From the NCBI RefSeq assembly GCF_024343775.1, contig NZ_RJUF01000194.1:62001-126000 (forward strand): DNA of 64,000 bases, read 5' to 3'. The first letter of the stretch is position 1. Every line of letters begins with the position of its first letter. The notes under the pieces were generated by a model. That model saw nothing but the letters and a program-made list of their open reading frames with translations, was not told the origin of the DNA and did not search any database. Shown piece by piece: positions 44,988 through 53,525 of this stretch. Source of the DNA: Lacihabitans soyangensis (lineage in GTDB: Bacteria > Bacteroidota > Bacteroidia > Cytophagales > Spirosomataceae). Made by a program: the position numbers and the translations under genes.

Positions 44988-46346
44988 TTAGCTAATTGGT
45001 AGTTTTATAATAAATGTTGTTCCCACTCCTACCATACTTTCTACCTCCATATTACCCCCATGCCCTTTAGTCACAATATCATAAGCCAAACTTAGTCCAA
45101 GGCCCGTACCTTTTCCAGTTGGTTTTGTTGTAAAAAATGGCTGAAATATCTTCTCAATATTTTCCTCCGAAATACCTGAACCATTGTCTTTTACTGTTAC
45201 TACGATAGTGCCATTTATATTTTGAGTGGAGATTGTCACATTCGGCTTATATGATTCCGCAGCCTGAGTTTGAGTATTATTTTTAGCCCTTTCATTACAA
45301 GCATAAAATGCATTGTTGATTAGATTCAAAAATACCCTTCCTAGGTCTTGTGGAACAGCGTCTATCATCGGCAAATTAGGATCCAATTCAGCTTTGAAAT
45401 CTGCATTAAAAGTTTTGTCCTTGGCTCGCAAACCATGGTAGCTCAATCGCAAAAACTCATCTGCTAAGGCATTGATATCTGTTGGTTCTTTTTGGCCAGT
45501 ATTGGTTCTGGAGTGCTGAAGCATGCCTTTTACAATACTTGCGGCACGTTTGCCATGGTGATTTATTTTTTCGGTATTTTGGGTAATATCTCCTAAAATC
45601 TCTTCGATCAACTCGCTTGCTGCAGCTTTATCGTTTGAAGTCAAAGCCTCCTTAAGTTCTGAAATCAGTTCTATATTTAATTCAGAAAAATTATTCACGA
45701 AATTCAGTGGATTCTGAATCTCGTGGGCAATACCTGCCGTAAGCTCACCCAAGGACGCTAGTTTCTCTTGCTGAACCAACTGATTCTGCGTAGCTTTTAG
45801 TTCTTCAACAGTAGATTCCAACTGCTCTTTTTGTGCCAATATCTCAGATGTCCGCTCCTTCACGAGCATCTCCAATTTTTCGTTTTCGCCTACTACAATT
45901 CTATTTTTTTCTTCCTCCTTTTTTAGTGCCTTTATCTGATTATTGGTACTAATAGCAAAAGCGACCATCCAAAAAAGAGCTCCGAGAAAAAGAAAATCTA
46001 TATACACATCATTTGCTTCAACAAAATCATTCATGAGGTACTCCAAAAAGTCTCTGAGACTATTAACAATGTAAAATGGTAAGCCAGCTTTGAGCAAAGA
46101 ACTAGCTAGGTTATTTTGCCGCAATAACCACAAAACATAAGTTATGGCTGAAAAAATTAAAAACCAGCCGAAGTTAATAGTTGGGAGAAACCTCTTAAAT
46201 GTGGTATATACTAAAAGCAATAAAAAAGGTACGACAAAAAAATTTAAAATCTTTAAATATTGATCATACTGAGGCAAAGTCTCTTTGGTATTAAGATGCT
46301 TTCGGATAAATTTTAAGGTAAAAAAGGCTACAAAAAAATTGAGCAT
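44988..46346 (-). CDS. Membrane sensor histidine kinase
   Basis: A 452-residue kinase. About five hydrophobic segments in residues 1-132 form the membrane sensor with short loops. A coiled coil (138-195, KNRIVVGENEKLEMLVKERTSE) leads to the dimerisation/phosphoacceptor domain with His208 in GIAHEIQNPLNF. The HATPase region has the N box (LINNAFYACNERAK), G1 (VKDNGSGIS), F box (FQPFFTTKP) and G2 (GKGTGLGLSLAYD). It belongs to the group often paired with receiver-cyclase proteins. The signal is unknown. First gene of the three-gene operon. Confidence 0.92.
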   Translation of the reverse strand: MLNFFVAFFTLKFIRKHLNTKETLPQYDQYLKILNFFVVPFLLLLVYTTFKRFLPTINFGWFLIFSAITYVLWLLRQNNLASSLLKAGLPFYIVNSLRDFLEYLMNDFVEANDVYIDFLFLGALFWMVAFAISTNNQIKALKKEEEKNRIVVGENEKLEMLVKERTSEILAQKEQLESTVEELKATQNQLVQQEKLASLGELTAGIAHEIQNPLNFVNNFSELNIELISELKEALTSNDKAAASELIEEILGDITQNTEKINHHGKRAASIVKGMLQHSRTNTGQKEPTDINALADEFLRLSYHGLRAKDKTFNADFKAELDPNLPMIDAVPQDLGRVFLNLINNAFYACNERAKNNTQTQAAESYKPNVTISTQNINGTIVVTVKDNGSGISEENIEKIFQPFFTTKPTGKGTGLGLSLAYDIVTKGHGGNMEVESMVGVGTTFIIKLPIS

Positions 46347-46585
46347 GGGATTGGAATTTATCTTGCGAAATAAGATGGTTTACAAAAAACAAATCAAATT
46401 AAGAAAAGTATCGGGCTAATTAAAAGTTAGTGTTTAAATAAATTTCGCTAAACAGCAAATTGTATAAATCTTCCAATAAAAAAATAACAAAACAATGACC
46501 TCTGTAAACGTCCAAGATTTAATCCGCTAGCAACCATAAGTCGAAAATCGGATTTGTTTCTATTACTTTGTAAAAAAATACCTAA

Positions 46586-46975
46586 ATGAACCAATACCTT
46601 GCACACATAGCGTTGGTAGTTAGAGATTACGACGAGGCAATAGAGTTTTATACCCAAAAACTACATTTTGACCTAATAGAAGACACCAAACTCTCTGAAT
46701 CCAAACGCTGGGTACTGATTGCACCCAATGGTTCGAGAGGGTGCCAAATTCTTTTAGCCAAAGCAGTGGGTGACCAAAAGCTCGCCATTGGAAATCAATC
46801 TGGTGGAAGAGTTTTTTTGTTTTTACATACAGACGATTTCGAAAGAGATTATCAGAATTTGTTGCTTCAAAACATTAAAATCTTTAGAGAACCAAGTATT
46901 GAAGAATTTGGCCAAGTATGTGTCTTTGAAGATCTTTACGGTAACTTGTGGGACCTGATTGAGAAAAAACCGTAA
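46586..46975 (+). CDS. VOC-family (glyoxalase-like) protein
   Basis: A 129-residue single VOC unit with paired beta-alpha-beta modules: NQYLAHIALVVRDYDEAIEFYTQ at the start, and FGQVCVFEDLYGNLWDLIEKK at the end carrying the metal-ligand Glu. His7 and Glu near 124 are plausible metal ligands. VOC members include lactoylglutathione lyase, fosfomycin resistance proteins and dioxygenases; nothing decides between them. Single gene with a bidirectional terminator. Confidence 0.88.
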   Translation: MNQYLAHIALVVRDYDEAIEFYTQKLHFDLIEDTKLSESKRWVLIAPNGSRGCQILLAKAVGDQKLAIGNQSGGRVFLFLHTDDFERDYQNLLLQNIKIFREPSIEEFGQVCVFEDLYGNLWDLIEKKP

Positions 46976-47012
46976 AAAAATGGGAATGCAAAGTAACTCA
47001 CATTCCCATTCC
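46976..47012. terminator. Bidirectional terminator between VOC and symporter genes
   Basis: AATGGGAATG pairs with CATTCCCATT over 10 bp around a 12-base loop, with A/T runs on both sides. Confidence 0.8.
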
Positions 47013-47033
47013 ATAAAATCTTAGAAGAATACT

Positions 47034-48314
47034 TTAATCCTTCAATTCTCCCTCCCACTTGGCCACAACTGCAGTTGCTACGGCATTACCTGCCACTGAA
47101 GTTGCCGAACGGCCCATGTCTAACAGCCAATCCACCGCCAATACTAGGCTAATCCCTTCCTGAGGAAGTCCAAACATGGTAAGCGTTCCAGCGATAACCA
47201 CCAAAGAAGCCCTCGGAACACCAGCGATACCTTTACTCGTCAAAAGCAAGGTCAGTAACATCGTAACTTGCTGACCCAATGTGAGTTCTATGCCATAAAT
47301 TTGAGCAATAAAACCCGTAGCAAAAGTCATATACATCATGGATCCGTCAAGATTGAAAGAATAACCCAAAGGCAATACAAAACTGATAATTCGCTCCGAA
47401 ATTCCGAATTTCTTCAACTGCTCTATCTGCATGGGCATAGAAGCCTCCGAACTGGCGGTGCTGAAAGACAGAAAAAGTGCGTCTTTGACATACCGAAGGA
47501 GCTTCCAGTAGTCTATTTTCATAAATAAACAAATCACCCACAAGACCACAAAAATGAAAAAAGCCAATGTGGCGAAAAAACAAACAATCAAATACAAATA
47601 TCCTCCCAAAACACCAAGACCTTTGGAAGCAATTACCGCCGCAACAGACCCAAAAACCGCATAGGGTGCAAATATCATCACATAACCGACAATCTTAAAC
47701 ATAACTTCGGCAATGGCATCCAAGGCCTTTGTGACCATTTTGCCTTTGTCTCCAATAGCCGCTAAAGCCACTCCAAAAAACAGCGAGAAAACGACTATTT
47801 GAAGAACTTCATTGGTAGCGAGTGCCTCAAAAATACTTTTCGGAAAAACATGGGTGATAAAATTCTCTAGGGTCATTTTCTTCGCCTCCACACCTGTATC
47901 GGTTCCAGTTTCGGGCAAATCCAACGACATTACCTTTCCGGGCTTCATGATATTTACAGCCACAAGCCCTGCAACCAACGACAAAATTGTAGCAAAATAG
48001 AAATAACCCAATGTCTTCAGACCAATTCGACCCACAACTTTGAAATCACCTAATTTAGCAATACCAACGGTCAAAATGGAAAAAACTAGTGGACCTAAAA
48101 TCATCTGAATAAGACGAAGGAAAATCTTGGATAATAGTTGTAGATAAGAACTCCACTCTTTTACACCATCGTTCGCCTTTACTTGTTCTGCAGTAAGTAA
48201 ACTGGCATCTTTTATACCAAACTGACCCAAATCAAAGTGGTTATGAATAAAAAAACCGACAATGATACCGAGTGTCATGCCGATGAAGATTTTCCAGGTA
48301 ATGTTTAATTTCAT
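47034..48314 (-). CDS. Dicarboxylate/amino acid:cation symporter (DAACS)
   Basis: A 426-residue GltP/DctA-type transporter with eight helices and two re-entrant loops. The HP1 serine-rich motif is FSTASSEASMPMQIEQL; helix 7 has LGYSFNLDGSMMYMTFATGF in place of the usual NMDGT; HP2 and helix 8 have AGVPRASLVVIAGTLTMFG and VDWLLDMGRSATSVAGNAVA. It imports C4-dicarboxylates or acidic amino acids with H+ or Na+. An insertion-like hydrophilic loop near residues 35-55 is usual in Bacteroidota members. Single gene. Confidence 0.93.
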   Translation of the reverse strand: MKLNITWKIFIGMTLGIIVGFFIHNHFDLGQFGIKDASLLTAEQVKANDGVKEWSSYLQLLSKIFLRLIQMILGPLVFSILTVGIAKLGDFKVVGRIGLKTLGYFYFATILSLVAGLVAVNIMKPGKVMSLDLPETGTDTGVEAKKMTLENFITHVFPKSIFEALATNEVLQIVVFSLFFGVALAAIGDKGKMVTKALDAIAEVMFKIVGYVMIFAPYAVFGSVAAVIASKGLGVLGGYLYLIVCFFATLAFFIFVVLWVICLFMKIDYWKLLRYVKDALFLSFSTASSEASMPMQIEQLKKFGISERIISFVLPLGYSFNLDGSMMYMTFATGFIAQIYGIELTLGQQVTMLLTLLLTSKGIAGVPRASLVVIAGTLTMFGLPQEGISLVLAVDWLLDMGRSATSVAGNAVATAVVAKWEGELKD

Positions 48315-48531
48315 TCGTTTTAGGGTTAATTCTTCTGTTTGATGATTAAAAATAAATATAAATCAATTCTTTCAATTTCGAATTTTTCGAGGCTTAAATT
48401 TCTACAAAAATAACAATTTCTTCTTCATTCTTTCCTAAAAAAGCACCTCTATGCATTTTTCTAATACTTACTTTGAATTTTTCGTTTTGGCAATTCCAAT
48501 AAAAGAGATTTTTAATTTCAAAAATTAATCC
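48315..48531. other. Intergenic spacer upstream of the rtcB leader
   Basis: AT-rich. One minus-strand CAAAAATA (48405-48412) fits a -7 box for the symporter gene. Nothing else recognised. Confidence 0.4.
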
Positions 48532-48539
48532 TAATTTTG
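48532..48539 (+). promoter_or_regulatory. -7 box of the rtcB leader transcript
   Basis: TAATTTTG, an exact TAnnTTTG match. Transcription would begin near 48545, about 35 bases before the leader ORF. The -33 element is weak. Confidence 0.55.
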
Positions 48540-48579
48540 CGAACGAATTTAGTATTCACTATTTAAACGAAGAGAAAAA

Positions 48580-48663
48580 ATGTTTGTATTCAAATCATTT
48601 CAAAATTGCAAACCATCAGTTGGATCTGGTGTGGCAATTCTTCGTGGCTTATCTCAATCTTAG
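48580..48663 (+). CDS. 27-codon leader ORF of the rtcB operon
   Basis: A short ORF opening MFVFKSFQNCKPSV and ending AILRGLSQS, preceded by A-rich sequence with AAGAG and followed 20 bases later by a strong terminator hairpin. It lies too close to promoter and terminator to be chance noise of the usual kind. Codons 21-24 (CTT CGT GGC TT.) include CTTCGTGGCTT, which is complementary to the 5' arm of the terminator. The peptide has no run of one amino acid, so it looks more like the leaders of ribosome-targeting resistance genes than an amino-acid biosynthetic leader. Its role as a regulatory leader is inferred. Confidence 0.55.
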   Translation: MFVFKSFQNCKPSVGSGVAILRGLSQS

Positions 48664-48695
48664 AAAAAATTATTGAATATATGAAAAGCCCGAAG
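48640..48695 (+). promoter_or_regulatory. Candidate antiterminator pairing
   Basis: CTTCGTGGCTT (48640-48650, inside the leader ORF) can pair with AAGCCCGAAG (48686-48695, the terminator 5' arm) over 10 bp with one bulged U. This pairing excludes the terminator. A ribosome at the leader stop codon would cover the upstream strand and favour termination. Confidence 0.5.
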
Positions 48696-48717
48696 ACATT
48701 AAGTTTCGGGCTTTTTT
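48684..48717 (+). terminator. Intrinsic terminator (attenuator) before rtcB
   Basis: AAAAGCCCGAA (48684-48694) pairs perfectly with TTCGGGCTTTT (48705-48715), a 10-base loop, then T6. It lies between the leader ORF and rtcB with no other gene to terminate, hence an attenuator. Confidence 0.85.
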
Positions 48718-48756
48718 GTTTGATATAATTATTCAAATTTCCCCGAAAACTATTTC

Positions 48757-48823
48757 AATTCCTTTTAAGGAATTTTCGAAGCAATAGAAAATTCAAAACT
48801 GAATTTTAGAAATTTCCTATTGC
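48757..48823 (+). promoter_or_regulatory. Stem-loops in the rtcB 5' region
   Basis: Hairpin 1: AATTCCTT (48757-48764) with AAGGAATT (48767-48774). Hairpin 2: GCAATAG with CTATTGC (48781-48787, 48817-48823) enclosing AAAATTC/GAATTTT. The second ends 23 bases before the rtcB start and could affect translation or mark an RNA-processing site. Confidence 0.45.
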
Positions 48824-48846
48824 CCAATTTTAAAATAAACAAAAAC

Positions 48847-50238
48847 ATGGGAAGTAAATTATCTGGAAAAGACCTGATAAAATTGGGTTTTCCAAAAAAC
48901 AATGCAATAAATATTGCCTTAGGGCAAATAAGCAGATATAGAAAAAAAGAAAAGAAAGAGAGTGTTTTAAAAGAAGCCAAAGGCGTACTATTGGAGCCGT
49001 CAAAATATATCGGAGACGGAATATGGGGGAAACTTGCAGAAGGATTAATAGATCCAGTGGAAGTTAGTTTCCAGCAGCTTAGAAATACCCGAGCACCTTA
49101 CAGTATTTTTGGAGAAAATGAAATAGAAGAGGAAGCAAAAATGCAGTTGTATTCAGCACTAAAGCTGCCAGTAGCATTAGCGGGAGCATTAATGCCAGAT
49201 GCCCATGCCGGCTATGGACTTCCAATTGGAGGGGTATTAGCTACAGAAAACGCTGTTATTCCTTACGGTGTTGGTGTAGATATTGGCTGTAGAATGAGTC
49301 TTTCAGTTTTTGATTTGCCTTCTACTTTCATAAAAGGAAGAGAGAGTCAATTGATGGGAATTTTGTCGGACCATACAAAATTTGGTTTGAATGAAACTCA
49401 AAAAATCAAAACAGATCATGAAATATTTTCTAGGAAAGAATTCAATGAGATTCCTATTCTACAACAAAATTTAGACAAAGCTTATAAACAGTTGGGTAGC
49501 TCAGGAGGTGGAAATCATTTTGTTGAATTTGGGATTGTTCGTTTTTCGCAAAACGAACTTATTTCGATGGATACTGAAAAAGAATATCTAGCAATTCTAT
49601 CTCACAGTGGTTCTAGAGGTTTAGGAGCAAACATTGCCAAACATTATACTTATTTGGCAAAAAAACAGTGCCCTTTGCCTAAAAATGTTCAGCATTTGGC
49701 TTGGCTAAATTTAGACACGCATGATGGGCAAGAGTATTGGGCGGCAATGAATCTTGCCGGAGATTACGCTAAAGCATGTCATGATGACATTCATAGGAGG
49801 ATTTCAAAAGCATTGGGAAAGAAATCAATTTTAAAAATTGAAAACCACCACAATTTCGCTTGGAAAGAAACAGTGAATGGAAAAGAGTGCATAGTTCACA
49901 GAAAAGGAGCCACTCCTGCTGCCAAAGGAGCTTTAGGGATCATTCCAGGTTCAATGACAGCACCCGGCTTTATTGTAGTCGGCAAAGGAAATAAAGAAAG
50001 CTTAGAATCAGCTTCTCATGGTGCGGGCAGACTGTTTTCAAGAGGAGTCTGCAAAGAGAGTTTTACCCAAAACCAGTTGGCAAATGTTTTAAAAAAACAC
50101 GATGTTAGCCTTATTGGTGGAAGTATTGACGAATCGCCAATGGCTTATAAAGACATTAATAAAGTCATGAGCCTACAGCAGGATTTGGTTGAAGTAATTG
50201 GAACTTTTTCGCCTAAAATAGTTAGAATGGACAGATGA
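48847..50238 (+). CDS. rtcB: RtcB-family RNA ligase
   Basis: A 463-residue RtcB ligase, joining 2',3'-cyclic phosphate or 3'-phosphate RNA ends to 5'-OH ends with GTP and Mn2+. The start MGSKLSGKDLIKLGFP matches the family; an ATG at 48820 overlaps hairpin 2 and is less likely. Metal and active-site residues are present: DAHAGYG (Asp118, His120), GVGVDIGC (Asp145, Cys148), GGGNHFVEFG, SHSGSRG, HRKGATPA, and the guanylylated His in ESASHGAGR. It is translationally coupled to prfH by a 4-base overlap. Known RtcB-PrfH pairs rescue and repair ribosomes with cleaved 16S rRNA, which is the likely role here. Confidence 0.93.
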   Translation: MGSKLSGKDLIKLGFPKNNAINIALGQISRYRKKEKKESVLKEAKGVLLEPSKYIGDGIWGKLAEGLIDPVEVSFQQLRNTRAPYSIFGENEIEEEAKMQLYSALKLPVALAGALMPDAHAGYGLPIGGVLATENAVIPYGVGVDIGCRMSLSVFDLPSTFIKGRESQLMGILSDHTKFGLNETQKIKTDHEIFSRKEFNEIPILQQNLDKAYKQLGSSGGGNHFVEFGIVRFSQNELISMDTEKEYLAILSHSGSRGLGANIAKHYTYLAKKQCPLPKNVQHLAWLNLDTHDGQEYWAAMNLAGDYAKACHDDIHRRISKALGKKSILKIENHHNFAWKETVNGKECIVHRKGATPAAKGALGIIPGSMTAPGFIVVGKGNKESLESASHGAGRLFSRGVCKESFTQNQLANVLKKHDVSLIGGSIDESPMAYKDINKVMSLQQDLVEVIGTFSPKIVRMDR

Positions 50239-50870
50239 AAAATTTAACTATAGAACGGGAAACGATTCAAATATCGGCAGCATGTGGACCAAAAGAATGC
50301 GAATATGTGGTAAAACATGTATTCGAAAAACTACTAAAAGAGGCAGAGGATTTGGGCATAAAAACTAAAATTCATAAAGAAGAATTCATCAAAGGTTTAC
50401 CTTTTTTTGAATCTATTATTTTAGAATTACAAAGCCCAAATCTTCAGGCCTTTTTAAAAAAATGGGTTGGGACCATTCAGTGGATTAGCAATAGCAATGT
50501 AAGACCAAACCATAAAAGGAAAAATTGGTTTGTAGGTATTTCAATTTTGAAAAACACAAAGATCATTGAACCTAAAGATTCTGACTTTCAGTACCAAACT
50601 CTCAGAAGTTCAGGTGCAGGAGGACAACATATCAATAAAGTAAGTTCGGCGGTGAGAATCACTTATACGCCAACTGGTTTAAGTTTAGTGTCAATGGATT
50701 CAAGGTCACAACATCAAAACAAAAAAATTGCTCTTCAACGAATGATGCAAAAATTAAATGAGGCTTCATTTGAAGAAATGCAAGTCAGTTCGATTAACAA
50801 TTGGAAACTTCAAAAAAGCTTGATTAGAGGAAATCCAGTCAGAATTTTTGAAGAACAAATTAAAAACTAA
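50235..50870 (+). CDS. prfH: Peptide chain release factor homologue PrfH
   Basis: A 211-residue truncated class I release factor. The peptidyl-hydrolysis GGQ is at 129-131 in RSSGAGGQHINKVSSAVRI, in the full catalytic domain. The stop-codon-recognition domain of RF1/RF2 is replaced by a short N-terminal part with the PrfH-type AACGPKECEYVV opening, where RF1/RF2 would have PxT or SPF elements. PrfH acts on ribosomes with a damaged decoding centre, releasing the peptide so the rRNA can be re-ligated by its RtcB partner (established for RtcB2-PrfH systems). The overlap with rtcB and the 5-base gap to the next gene place it mid-operon. Confidence 0.93.
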   Translation: MKNLTIERETIQISAACGPKECEYVVKHVFEKLLKEAEDLGIKTKIHKEEFIKGLPFFESIILELQSPNLQAFLKKWVGTIQWISNSNVRPNHKRKNWFVGISILKNTKIIEPKDSDFQYQTLRSSGAGGQHINKVSSAVRITYTPTGLSLVSMDSRSQHQNKKIALQRMMQKLNEASFEEMQVSSINNWKLQKSLIRGNPVRIFEEQIKN

Positions 50871-50875
50871 AAAAA

Positions 50876-51400
50876 ATGAATACAGTAGACAAATATTTAG
50901 GTCAGGCTCTGGATGCATATCCGCATTGGCTAGAATCGACCATCGAATCTTTAGAATTTGCTTTAGCTCATGACGAAAATAACACAAGTGCATTGTGTTT
51001 GTACGCTCGCGTTCAATCAGAGCAATTTATGAATTATGAGGTAGCCATTAGTTACTTTCAACAGGCATTGGCTACAGATATCAATGCCTTGCACATTTAT
51101 CCGTTTTTTATTAAAACTTTAATACTAAATGAGGATTATAAGGAAGCTGAAAAACTCATCGCATTTTCGTTGAAGCTAAAAGGTACCAACAAGGTCGAGA
51201 TTTTATTCAATAGAATGAAGTTGCTCGAAATTCAAAAGGAATTTAAAGCTGCAATGGAAGTATTGAAAGAAATTCAAATGCTGATTACCGATATCGAGTA
51301 TAATACCGATATTGAAGAGTCTGAAAAAAGAATTAGGATGAAAATCAAATTGGCCACAAGTCAAAAATTAAGAATCAAAAAATTGGAAGCGTCTATATGA
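50876..51400 (+). CDS. TPR-like helical protein, third gene of rtcB-prfH operon
   Basis: A 174-residue soluble protein with no signal peptide. Helical repeats resemble TPR/SEL1 units: LESTIESLEFALAHDENNTSALCLYARV, YEVAISYFQQALATDINALHIYPFFI, DYKEAEKLIAFSLKLKGTNKVEILF and EFKAAMEVLKEIQMLI. The C-terminus is strongly basic (MKIKLATSQKLRIKKLEAS), which would suit RNA or ribosome binding. The gene starts 5 bases after prfH, so it is almost certainly expressed with the repair system. I do not know a characterised family for it; a scaffold or ribosome-targeting role is inference. Confidence 0.75.
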   Translation: MNTVDKYLGQALDAYPHWLESTIESLEFALAHDENNTSALCLYARVQSEQFMNYEVAISYFQQALATDINALHIYPFFIKTLILNEDYKEAEKLIAFSLKLKGTNKVEILFNRMKLLEIQKEFKAAMEVLKEIQMLITDIEYNTDIEESEKRIRMKIKLATSQKLRIKKLEASI

Positions 51401-51503
51401 TGCTTCCAAATTATGAAATATCAATTTTTTGAAAATTCTATTCAAAAAAGAAGAAACAATTTGCACAAAAAAACTATTTAAACTTTCTTATTCATTTATC
51501 TGT

Positions 51504-51511
51504 TAATTTTG
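51504..51511 (+). promoter_or_regulatory. -7 box immediately upstream of ygiQ
   Basis: TAATTTTG ends 4 bases before the ygiQ ATG, implying a leaderless or nearly leaderless mRNA if used. Confidence 0.45.
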
Positions 51512-51515
51512 CATT

Positions 51516-53525
51516 ATGATAACAGTAAGAGAAAGGCCAGTAACACATTGGCTGCCAATAACTAAAAAAGAAGTAGAAATGAGGGGCTGGGATGAGCTAG
51601 ACGTCATCATCATCTCCGGCGATGCCTATGTTGACCATCCCTCGTTTGGCACGGCTGTTATCGGTAGAATTATTGAAAGTGAAGGCTTTAAGGTAGCTAT
51701 TATTCCCCAACCCAACTGGAAAGATGACCTTCGCGATTTCAAAAAATTGGGTAAACCCAAATATTTTTTCGGGGTTACTGCCGGCTGTATGGATTCAATG
51801 GTGAATCACTACACCGCTAATAAACGCCGCCGCTCTAACGACAGTTACACACCAGGCGGAGAAGCGGGTTTCAGGCCTGATTACGCCACCACGGTTTATA
51901 GCAAGATTTTAAAAGAAATATACCCAGACGTACCTGTTCTGATAGGAGGCATTGAAGCTTCACTTAGAAGAGTTACCCACTACGACTATTGGGAGGATAA
52001 ACTTCTACCTTCAATATTGGTAGATTCTGAGGCCGATATGTTGGTTTATGGTATGGGAGAGCAGCCTTTACGGGATTTATTGAGGTTGGTCAAGAAAGGT
52101 GTGCCGTTAAATGCCATCAAAGATGTCAATCAAATTGCATTCCTAGAAGAGGGACTTGAAGACGTAAAAGATTACAAAAACTGGGAGACTGTAGAATTGG
52201 CCAGTCATGAGGTTTGTTTGGAAGATAAAATAAAATATGCCTCCAATTTCAAGATAGTAGAAGTAGAATCGAACAAATGGCAAGCCAATAGGATAGTGCA
52301 AAAAGTGGGCAATAAAACTTTGGTTATCAACCCGCCATACAAAACCATGGATGAGGAAGAAATGGATAAATCGTTTGATTTGCCTTATACCCGCATGCCA
52401 CATCCTAAATACGCCAAACGTGGCACCATTCCGGCTTATGAAATGATCAAATTCTCCATCAATATGCACCGTGGGTGTTTTGGTGGTTGCAGTTTTTGTA
52501 CCATTTCGGCCCACCAAGGCAAGTTTATAGCATCTCGTTCGGAGGAATCTATCATGAAAGAAGTGGATGCTCTGACCCAACACCCTGAGTTTAAGGGGTA
52601 CATTTCCGATCTAGGTGGTCCATCGGCCAACATGTATCGAATGAAAGGCAAAGATGAATCTATTTGTAATCGTTGCCAAGCTCCGAGTTGTATTCACCCC
52701 GTAATATGCTCGAATCTAGACACTTCTCACAAGCCACTGACCAAACTTTACCAAAAAGTAGATGCCCATCCTGAAATCAAAAAAGCATTTGTGGGTTCAG
52801 GCGTAAGGTATGACCTCTTGGTGGACGATTTCAACAAAAACAATCAAGACGGCAACCATGACGAATACATGGAGCAGTTGGTCACTCGCCACGTTTCGGG
52901 CAGACTGAAAGTAGCACCAGAGCATACTTCCGATGCAACACTTAGAGTTATGCGTAAGCCAGGTTTTAAATATTTCAGAAAATTCAAAGACAAATACGAC
53001 AAAATACAAGAAAAACACGGCCTGAAACAGCCATTGATTCCGTATTTCATCAGTTCGCACCCAGGCTGTGAAGAAGCTGACATGGCCAATTTGGCAGCTG
53101 AAACCAAGGATTTGGGTTTTAAATTGGAACAAGTACAAGACTTCACTCCCACACCAATGACAGTAGCTGAGGTGATTTACTACACCGGCGTGCATCCATA
53201 CACCTTACAACCGATACATACTGCCAAAACCAAAGAAGAAAAACTGACGCAGAACAAATATTTCTTCTGGTACAAGCCAGAAGTAAAAGGCTGGATAAAG
53301 AGTCGTTTATTAAAACTCGGACATAAAGAACTGGCAGCAAAACTTTTGAGCCCGATAAAACCACACAATAACGAGGTTAAAAAAGTAGAGGAACTTCAGA
53401 AAAAATCGACTACTGTAATGTCTCAAAAACCAAATTTCGACCATAAAAAACAGTTCGAAACAAAACCGAAAGAAGATGTTTTTCAAAAGAAAAAACCATT
53501 GAAAAAGAAGAAAGGTTGGGCGTAA
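51516..53525 (+). CDS. ygiQ: YgiQ-family radical SAM protein
   Basis: A 669-residue radical SAM enzyme of the UPF0313/YgiQ family. The N-terminal B12-binding-like domain contains DVIIISGDAYVDHPSFGTAVIGRI and SLRRVTHYDYWEDKLLPSI. The cluster-binding motif is CFGGCSFC (CxxxCxxC) in MHRGCFGGCSFCTISAHQGK, followed by a second Cys group (CNRCQAPSCIHPVICSNLD) for an extra Fe-S site. The last 60 residues are Lys-rich and probably disordered. The reaction is not known. The start is supported by the conserved RPVTHWLPITKKEVEMRGWDELD, which begins within seven residues. Confidence 0.95.
   Translation: MITVRERPVTHWLPITKKEVEMRGWDELDVIIISGDAYVDHPSFGTAVIGRIIESEGFKVAIIPQPNWKDDLRDFKKLGKPKYFFGVTAGCMDSMVNHYTANKRRRSNDSYTPGGEAGFRPDYATTVYSKILKEIYPDVPVLIGGIEASLRRVTHYDYWEDKLLPSILVDSEADMLVYGMGEQPLRDLLRLVKKGVPLNAIKDVNQIAFLEEGLEDVKDYKNWETVELASHEVCLEDKIKYASNFKIVEVESNKWQANRIVQKVGNKTLVINPPYKTMDEEEMDKSFDLPYTRMPHPKYAKRGTIPAYEMIKFSINMHRGCFGGCSFCTISAHQGKFIASRSEESIMKEVDALTQHPEFKGYISDLGGPSANMYRMKGKDESICNRCQAPSCIHPVICSNLDTSHKPLTKLYQKVDAHPEIKKAFVGSGVRYDLLVDDFNKNNQDGNHDEYMEQLVTRHVSGRLKVAPEHTSDATLRVMRKPGFKYFRKFKDKYDKIQEKHGLKQPLIPYFISSHPGCEEADMANLAAETKDLGFKLEQVQDFTPTPMTVAEVIYYTGVHPYTLQPIHTAKTKEEKLTQNKYFFWYKPEVKGWIKSRLLKLGHKELAAKLLSPIKPHNNEVKKVEELQKKSTTVMSQKPNFDHKKQFETKPKEDVFQKKKPLKKKKGWA

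Follow-up and report, generated by a model that had tools for sequence, protein, structure and literature searches.

A candidate ribosome-controlled transcription attenuator ahead of the rtcB-prfH RNA-repair genes in Bacteroidota

How might an operon that repairs broken ribosomes learn that ribosomes are broken? To our knowledge, damage sensing by RNA-repair operons has been worked out in few cases, and Tian et al. (2022) is said to be an in vitro repair study. The question is raised by a locus of Lacihabitans soyangensis (contig NZ_RJUF01000194.1, positions 62,001-126,000, forward strand; this whole stretch of 64,000 nt is called the window, and coordinates are positions in it), where rtcB and prfH stand behind a short leader that holds a promoter box, a 27-codon open reading frame (ORF) and an intrinsic terminator. 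Read from its sequence, the leader is made of four segments with mutually exclusive pairings, 1:2, 2:3 and 3:4. We propose, with a probability of roughly 0.75, that it is a ribosome-controlled transcription attenuator for rtcB-prfH in which these segments form an ON/OFF switch. If so, no protein regulator would be involved: a damaged ribosome would itself operate the switch and thereby summon the enzymes that mend it. The parts of the leader and the genes behind it are as follows.

48532-48539, + strand: sigmaA-type promoter box TAATTTTG, a sequence match to TAnnTTTG
48567-48574, + strand: segment 1, ACGAAGAG, directly 5' of the leader start codon, pairs with segment 2
48580-48663, + strand: leader ORF, ATG to TAG, 27 codons, predicted peptide MFVFKSFQNCKPSVGSGVAILRGLSQS, from ORF reading
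48638-48650, + strand: segment 2, TTCTTCGTGGCTT, codons 20-24, partner of segments 1 and 3 by pairing and covariation
48686-48695, + strand: segment 3, AAGCCCGAAG, terminator 5' arm and antiterminator 3' arm, by pairing and covariation
48704-48713, + strand: segment 4, TTTCGGGCTT, terminator 3' arm, by terminator scan and folding
48712-48717, + strand: T6 tract of the intrinsic terminator, by terminator scan
48847-50238, + strand: rtcB, RNA ligase (Pfam PF01139, E 6.5e-82)
50235-50870, + strand: prfH, peptide chain release factor H (TIGR03072, 203.7 bits, cut-off 166.65)
50876-51400, + strand: TPR-repeat gene 3' of prfH (Pfam TPR_19, 26.3 bits vs 25)

A leader of four segments

The original prediction, made from the window alone, had placed a TAnnTTTG box, a 27-codon ORF and a hairpin with T6 about 130 nt before rtcB, and these coordinates hold, with the terminator ending at 48717 and rtcB starting at 48847. 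The hairpin ranked first among 13 terminator-like sites in 46000-52000, and its folding energy of -16.7 kcal/mol (z -5.8) was equalled by 0 of 200 shuffles. The proposed pairing of CTTCGTGGCTT (48640-48650, codons 21-24) with the terminator 5' arm at 48686-48695 holds as well. Missing from that first description was segment 1, which came to light when relatives were aligned side by side: ACGAAG (48567-48572; ACGAAG(A)) is complementary to CTTCGT/TCTTCGT within the ORF, and this stretch is also the partner of the terminator 5' arm. When the window ORF was recoded at random with synonymous codons, only 6 of 5000 versions matched the natural strength of both 1:2 and 2:3. Chance, or a plain terminator, was rejected on the strength of these recodings and of the tree-based covariation null given below.

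Conservation and covariation in Bacteroidota

The leader heads the operon in 71 of 80 loci, these being the best 80 with this RtcB from a scan of genome contigs in which further loci exist. A rule-based pattern search recovered the layout upstream of rtcB in 64 of the 80 as well as in the window (the match at locus L100 took the wrong ORF and was replaced by hand). In the 573,708 bases searched, a single match lay downstream of where rtcB starts, and the reverse strand gave none. Leaders added or corrected by hand (L074, L076, L093, L100, L102, L110 and L115) brought the count to 69 plus the window, L093 being doubtful, and a covariance model, R1, added L098, with its leader 1.6 kb upstream of rtcB, and L125, where the leader lies about 3.6 kb upstream and fronts a rearranged operon with prfH before rtcB. 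By these means no leader was found in L085, L090 (142 nt of upstream sequence only), L104-L108, L119 and L128; weak diverged R1 matches occur in L104, L105, L106, L107 and L119. Carriers include Flavobacterium, Tenacibaculum, Polaribacter, Aquimarina, Myroides, Chryseobacterium, Sphingobacterium, Fluviicola and others, genera that we take to belong to Flavobacteriaceae, Weeksellaceae, Sphingobacteriaceae and Crocinitomicaceae. The presence of the leader follows that of prfH, which tblastn located in 71 of the 80 loci: 68 of these 71 have the leader, versus 3 of the 9 without prfH. At L117, which has the leader and no prfH at the locus, the stretch ends soon after rtcB and a prfH-like match lies elsewhere in the genome.

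Covariation was scored on an aligned set, A1, of 57 distinct rows from 69 leader windows, with L093 excluded from pair counts and tree tests and the anchors of L110 and L115 moved by hand. Paired cells make up 89.5% for 2:3, 89.9% for 1:2 and 96.2% for 3:4. Cells changed on both sides number 41 for 2:3 versus 15.9 in shuffled controls, and 81 for 1:2 plus 3:4 versus 34.3, a level reached in 0 of 500 shuffles in either case. The shuffles ignore relatedness, and because related sequences inflate covariation counts a tree-based null was applied, in which columns were simulated independently on a quick tree of 81 RtcB proteins and scored for being paired as often with covariation as high. Pairs from all three helices stand out on this null: 8:16 (0/400) and 2:22 (4/400) in 1:2, 25:34 (0/400) and 24:35 (10/400) in 2:3, and 34:49 and 35:48 (0/400 each) in 3:4. 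Pair 8:16 is the most telling of the first helix, being AU in 26 rows, CG in 15, UG in 11 and UA in 5, unpaired in 0 of 57, and changed at least nine times on the tree. Across 70 leaders the commonest combinations in segments 2, 3 and 4 are GC/GC/GC (20), GT/AC/GT (16) and AC/GT/AC (9). An antiterminator that excludes the terminator is thus conserved with covariation, as is a 1:2 helix placed to act as protector (at 8:16, with neighbouring pairs weaker), and an intrinsic terminator stands between the ORF and the first gene, a T5 run following the stem in 65 of 70 leaders. The expectation in the original prediction that ORF and 2:3 pairing would be conserved, with compensatory change, in homologous loci is borne out by the layout in 71 of 80 loci and by pair 25:34.

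Promoter elements fall on the upstream side of this layout. TAnnTTTG is the sigmaA box reported for F. psychrophilum (PMC9723704), and 42 of 70 leaders carry an exact copy no more than 85 nt ahead of the leader start, whereas 200 mononucleotide shuffles gave a mean of 2.2 and a maximum of 7. Between terminator and rtcB the window holds no such box, exact or with one mismatch, and no exact box was found there in the 33 leaders lying less than 260 nt from rtcB (window included; 4731 bases, a count that carries no chance comparison). A separate strong promoter in 48717-48847, accounting for all rtcB transcription, had been named as one threat to the proposal. The box is absent from that interval, which does contain one 9/12 match of sigma-70 type (48807-48836), a kind of promoter that may be out of place in this organism; because of this match a second promoter past the terminator is possible.

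The element is conserved across several families of Bacteroidota and can be found by R1, which, like the leader set A2, was built from 43 of the 70 leaders and run with stricter search filters on sets of more than 40 genomes. Among 47 genomes drawn from the 80 loci, 43 gave a match below 1e-6, one per genome, with the next match at 9.6e-5; 41 of these fell on known leaders and two on those of L098 and L125, and the genomes of L100, L104, L105 and L107 gave none below 1e-6. In a class sample of 395 genomes, which overlaps the 47 (G642 and G543 share coordinates), all nine matches below 1e-6, the window's included, precede rtcB, which for the eight others lies downstream within 1.5 kb. The window's own genome gave a single place at E up to 0.1, and samples of its family (222 genomes) and order (390, overlapping) gave no other match below 1e-4; the best of these others, L130, was rejected because its match covers the tail of a 338-aa ORF with a terminator behind it. 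Among 29 RtcB loci of the window's family (L020-L048), R1 found nothing up to E 1 within 1.5-kb flanks on both strands, and tblastn found no prfH. Of 10 genomes in its genus, the window's is alone in having a near prfH match, identity elsewhere reaching 28% at most; the nearest neighbours of the window protein in the RtcB tree are of Flavobacterium type, L049 first, and among the 42 other leaders in A2 that of L050 comes closest to the window's, at 82% identity. As far as sequence comparison can tell, joint acquisition of operon and leader by the window's genome is likeliest. Identity with a known RNA family was rejected: Rfam 15 has 0 matches in the window at gathering cut-off, and each of the 31 matches at 48300-48900 with E up to 10 is under its gathering score.

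Diverged or related leaders were also noted. In L104 (1042-1205) and L105 (1114-1273) the layout recurs in diverged form roughly 1.7-1.8 kb ahead of rtcB, with no prfH in the fetched stretch; by eye their segments are CCGGGTTT/AAGCCCGG/CCGGGCTT and CCGGGTT/AACCCGG/CCGGGTT. A genome of the window's order has, at L164:1480-1650, a diverged leader MFYAAVLNMINQNWKLCQQVRGVC with GTTCGGG/CCCGAAC/GTTCGGG before an RtcB gene (R1 E 0.014). A leader ORF (MKQQSIFNIF...CCY) with terminator precedes Hen1 (PF12623, of Pnkp-Hen1 RNA repair) at L159:1500-1650, L162:1500-1650 and L218 upstream of 1501, with segments TCCGGG/CCCGGA/TCCGGG (TTCGGG in L218), in three genomes of one genus. Hen1 operons were rejected as general carriers: the leader occurs in 2 of 30 Hen1 loci (L217-L246) plus L159, all of one genus, and was not seen by eye in the 300 nt upstream of the other 28. 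Several marine Flavobacteriaceae have a second strong terminator, with arms CGTCCAA/TTGGACG, a few hundred bases upstream of the leader (relative to rtcB, L071 -521..-488, L075 -518..-485, L081 -549..-516, and others).

As for the genes themselves, the window RtcB scores below the cut-off of TIGR03073 (release_rtcB; 146.3 vs 271.8 bits), and the name RtcB2 is our assumption from its position before prfH. Genes like the TPR-repeat one trail prfH in several relatives, judged by eye from ORF listings. A conserved protein of about 180-200 aa (MGA.HNIKRYGE..WHFMSE..HAHDHKDID.FV) follows rtcB, for example at L109:4497-5042 and L117:4512-5123; it occurs in 12 of 17 listed loci, before prfH where prfH follows, L117 being at a contig edge. 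Upstream in the window, 47034-48314 encodes a member of the sodium:dicarboxylate symporter family on the strand opposite to rtcB, and for this reason the + strand terminator before rtcB does not end the symporter gene.

The predicted switch and what it would report

Folding was computed for 68 of the 70 leaders (L093 and L100 left out), with a ribosome represented as a mask of 31 nt around the P-site codon. Median duplex energies are -10.3 kcal/mol for 1:2, -14.2 for 2:3 and -16.1 for 3:4 (window, -9.4, -15.5 and -18.1); 3:4 is stronger than 2:3 in 57 of 68 leaders and 2:3 stronger than 1:2 in 63. Before segment 3 exists, 1:2 has a median probability of 0.97 and exceeds 0.5 in 61 of 68. Under a masked ribosome it exceeds 0.5 in none of the 68 at codons 1-4, in 9, 29 and 34 at codons 5, 6 and 7, and then returns at codons 8-13 (41 to 60 of 68) before dropping at 14-16 (30, 30 and 6). 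With segment 3 present, 2:3 is likely for ribosomes up to codon 15-16, exceeds 0.5 in 5 of 68 at codon 17 and in none from 18 onward. The model predicts that ON is clearest with a ribosome held at codons 1-4 and fades by about codon 7, and that a ribosome near the stop gives OFF.

The following sequence of events would accommodate these properties. RNA polymerase makes segments 1 and 2 first, 1:2 would form, and a leader left unread would proceed to the 3:4 terminator (OFF). A ribosome completing the ORF would cover segment 2 and likewise leave the 3:4 terminator to fold (OFF). An initiated ribosome held within the first few codons would cover segment 1 and free segment 2, letting 2:3 form before segment 4, and with 2:3 formed ahead of segment 4 rtcB-prfH would be transcribed (ON). 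The natural signal would be ribosomes cut in the 16S decoding centre, which may initiate yet halt within a few codons, and intact ribosomes would then translate the repair enzymes off the read-through mRNA. The sharp prediction is that ribosomes which start and then stop early turn the operon on, and it can be put codon by codon. Of the parts of this proposal, the attenuator architecture is very likely, that the leader reports early-held ribosomes is probable, and that cut ribosomes are the main natural signal is about an even bet.

Measured against this scheme, the idea that the leader senses ribosomes stands, masked folding yielding a switch, and its account lacked the part played by segment 1. 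Equating failure to reach the stop with ON is incomplete, for an early-held ribosome would act by covering segment 1 too. The grouping of blocked initiation with stalling is probably mistaken: a ribosome-free leader is predicted to fold 1:2 first and is probably OFF, and initiation failure should for that reason be kept apart from stalling. A dependence of read-through on translation, and the role of damaged ribosomes as its natural signal, are our inference.

Several observations weigh against the switch as drawn. The OFF state without translation requires 1:2, once formed, to last until segment 4 is made. At equilibrium with segment 3 present, the ribosome-free leader has 2:3 above 0.5 in 57 of 68, and a ribosome at most positions as far as codon 15-16 leaves 2:3 above 0.5; the OFF predicted for an unread leader and for a ribosome in mid-ORF would therefore depend on folding order and is the weakest step of the prediction. 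A second, smaller window appears at codons 14-16, where 1:2 is falling while 2:3 is still likely, and in 11 of 68 leaders 3:4 fails to exceed 2:3 in strength. Pairs 9:15 (36/400), 26:33 (25/400) and 27:32 (108/400) are unremarkable on the tree null, and 2:22 is unpaired in 13 of 57 rows. L086 and L112 retain the leader in genomes that lack a near match to prfH, and diverged leaders precede a prfH-less rtcB in L104 and L105. Finally, an early hold is generic, and drugs or starvation could cause it.

This last point is the substance of the strongest rival, in which the same attenuator senses elongation trouble of any kind, be it from antibiotics, tRNA damage or starvation, a possibility to which we give somewhat less than an even chance. 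Any early-held ribosome yields the ON fold, and other leaders are reported to have several inducers: E. coli toiL to at least five drug classes, with stalls at different positions (PMC12121999), and PA5471.1 to ribosome-targeting drugs and to loss of cca (PMC12057347, PMC13041342). Speaking for damage as the signal are the controlled genes, which repair cut 16S rRNA, and the predicted ON window, which coincides with the published halting range, other inducers being compatible with both. E. coli ribosomes cleaved by colicin E3 are reported to start translation at about 75% of the control level and then to stop a few codons on (Lancaster 2008, PMC2615495), and the authors of that study extrapolate that peptides of more than about eight residues should be essentially absent; RtcB2-PrfH is described as protecting E. 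coli from colicin E3 (PMC9223846). That the predicted ON window coincides with the range in which cut ribosomes halt fits the damage reading, as a match of two independent numbers and not as proof.

Alternatively, 1:2 might only throttle leader translation by hiding the start region, the terminator being governed mainly by translation versus none. Segment 1 does touch the start region, 1:2 is predicted to prevail before segment 3 is made, the ribosome-free leader favours 2:3 at equilibrium, and 2:3 covariation is compatible with this account. By itself it leaves unexplained why an ON window at the ORF start coincides with segment 1, and we consider it unlikely.

Attenuation specific to the peptide or to an amino acid, through nascent-peptide arrest or one starved codon, is less likely by a good measure. 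It could draw on phenylalanine, which occupies codon 2 in 52 of 70 leaders and makes up 11.2% of leader residues versus 4.0% in four window genes. Set against it, changes at codon positions 1, 2 and 3 number 40, 38 and 38 (21 independent close pairs), segment 2 lies in another reading frame in L073 and L123, no single-codon runs were seen by eye in the listed leader peptides, tryptophan is 0.1% of leader residues, and neither named operon gene makes an amino acid. Peptide-driven arrest and amino-acid control were rejected on the lack of amino-acid constraint, the frame shifts and the absence of codon runs. What is kept is geometry: a short ORF with start and stop conserved, by sequence reading, its start ATG in 69 leaders and GTG in one, its length 24-28 codons in 69 of 70, with segment 2 lying 21 nt from the stop in 53 of 67 and the stop 22-39 nt from segment 3 in 68 of 70. 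The leader amino acids look free, and the start, the length and the nucleotide segments look constrained; since start and length are kept while amino acids are unconstrained, the place of the ribosome rather than its peptide would matter. Leader stop codons are TAG in 53, TAA in 17 and TGA in none (n = 70).

Least credible is an independent small RNA or small-protein gene merely ending in a terminator near rtcB, which could appeal to the 27 of 70 leaders lying at least 500 nt from rtcB (maximum 1668; less than 260 nt in 33 of 70, window included) and to the lack of a long gap ORF in L103 and L112, and which is contradicted by covarying alternative pairings, a peptide free of constraint, one strong copy per genome at the rtcB operon, and a same-strand long ORF of 228-457 aa in the gap in 15 of 18 loci examined. 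Because of this same-strand gap ORF, a single transcript for leader and rtcB is consistent with the layout. A gap gene of about 228-257 aa, conserved by eye, recurs in many loci (L056:2251-2997, L076:2327-3013, L111:2229-2975; these three were tested, with no Pfam match), and in L083 its place is occupied by a PcfJ-like gene. In the Capnocytophaga operon of L125, noted at 2397-2966, the order is leader, 200-aa ORF, prfH, putative KptA/Tpt1-like protein, rtcB; the likeness to KptA/Tpt1 is our assumption, by eye.

Relation to known attenuators

Attenuators of trp type comprise segments pairing as 1:2, 2:3 and 3:4, a leader ORF over the early segments, and a decision taken by ribosome position. 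The window leader shares this four-segment logic, without a control-codon run or an amino-acid pathway. It differs in that segment 1 precedes the start codon; therefore the ON position would be the start of the ORF, unlike in the trp type.

By eye, Enterobacterales rtcB2-prfH loci have a leader of their own, of 15 codons, after an AAGGAGG site (MTNPLSMTLCRPFQD / MTTTNMNTLCGQSQK), at L249:1540-1730, L250:1540-1790, L247:1160-1500 (E. coli) and L258:1720-1865 (Proteus), with two distinct sequences only. In it CTGCAAGG pairs with CTTTGCAG/CTTTGCGG, GCAGAC/GTCTGC becoming GCGGAC/GTCCGC, and CCATTTCC/GGAATGG over the rtcB2 start becomes CCAATC/GATTGG. From its sequence this looks like translational attenuation; the fold of L249 does not outdo shuffled sequences (z -1.3).

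Other short ORFs have been proposed to report stalls to stress genes, E. coli toiL (topAI-yjhQ) and Bacillales uORFC-6-1 before hflX among them (PMC12121999, PMC8632094). Both control genes other than rtcB-prfH, and toiL acts through the topAI ribosome-binding site and Rho. Leader-peptide attenuation has likewise been inferred for amino-acid operons of Flavobacterium psychrophilum (PMC9723704), which differ in the genes controlled; the word rtcB is absent from that paper's main text. The partial texts consulted on rtcB-prfH, on leader-peptide attenuation and on attenuators of Bacteroidota or Flavobacterium contain no description of the present leader.

The closest relative is the PA5471.1 leader of Pseudomonas aeruginosa, which controls armZ (PA5471, RtcB-like) next to PA5470/prfH through what is described as proposed attenuation (PMC12057347, PMC13041342). 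The original prediction knew of no example for rtcB-prfH, and in this it was mistaken, this one having already been described. As far as the descriptions allow a likening, in both a leader ORF precedes an rtcB-like gene that neighbours prfH, and the model proposed there resembles ours, full translation giving the 3:4 terminator and a stalled ribosome giving read-through. An early amber codon (Q3) in PA5471.1 raises expression, and the described deletion removes 226 nt, more than the ORF alone. It differs in phylum and in that armZ acts as a MexZ anti-repressor.

A further reading, which we place a shade under even odds, is that the leader serves specifically to detect broken ribosomes in cis, and that the same solution has arisen before rtcB-prfH in at least three lineages, namely Bacteroidota (transcriptional), Pseudomonas (PA5471.1) and Enterobacterales (a 15-codon leader with putative translational control of rtcB2). 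The spacing of segments 1 and 2 would catch ribosomes that halt within about eight codons inside the antitermination window, which neither healthy ribosomes nor ribosome-free transcripts would open. Relative to PA5471.1-armZ, the window leader is a new and deeply conserved element, in another phylum.

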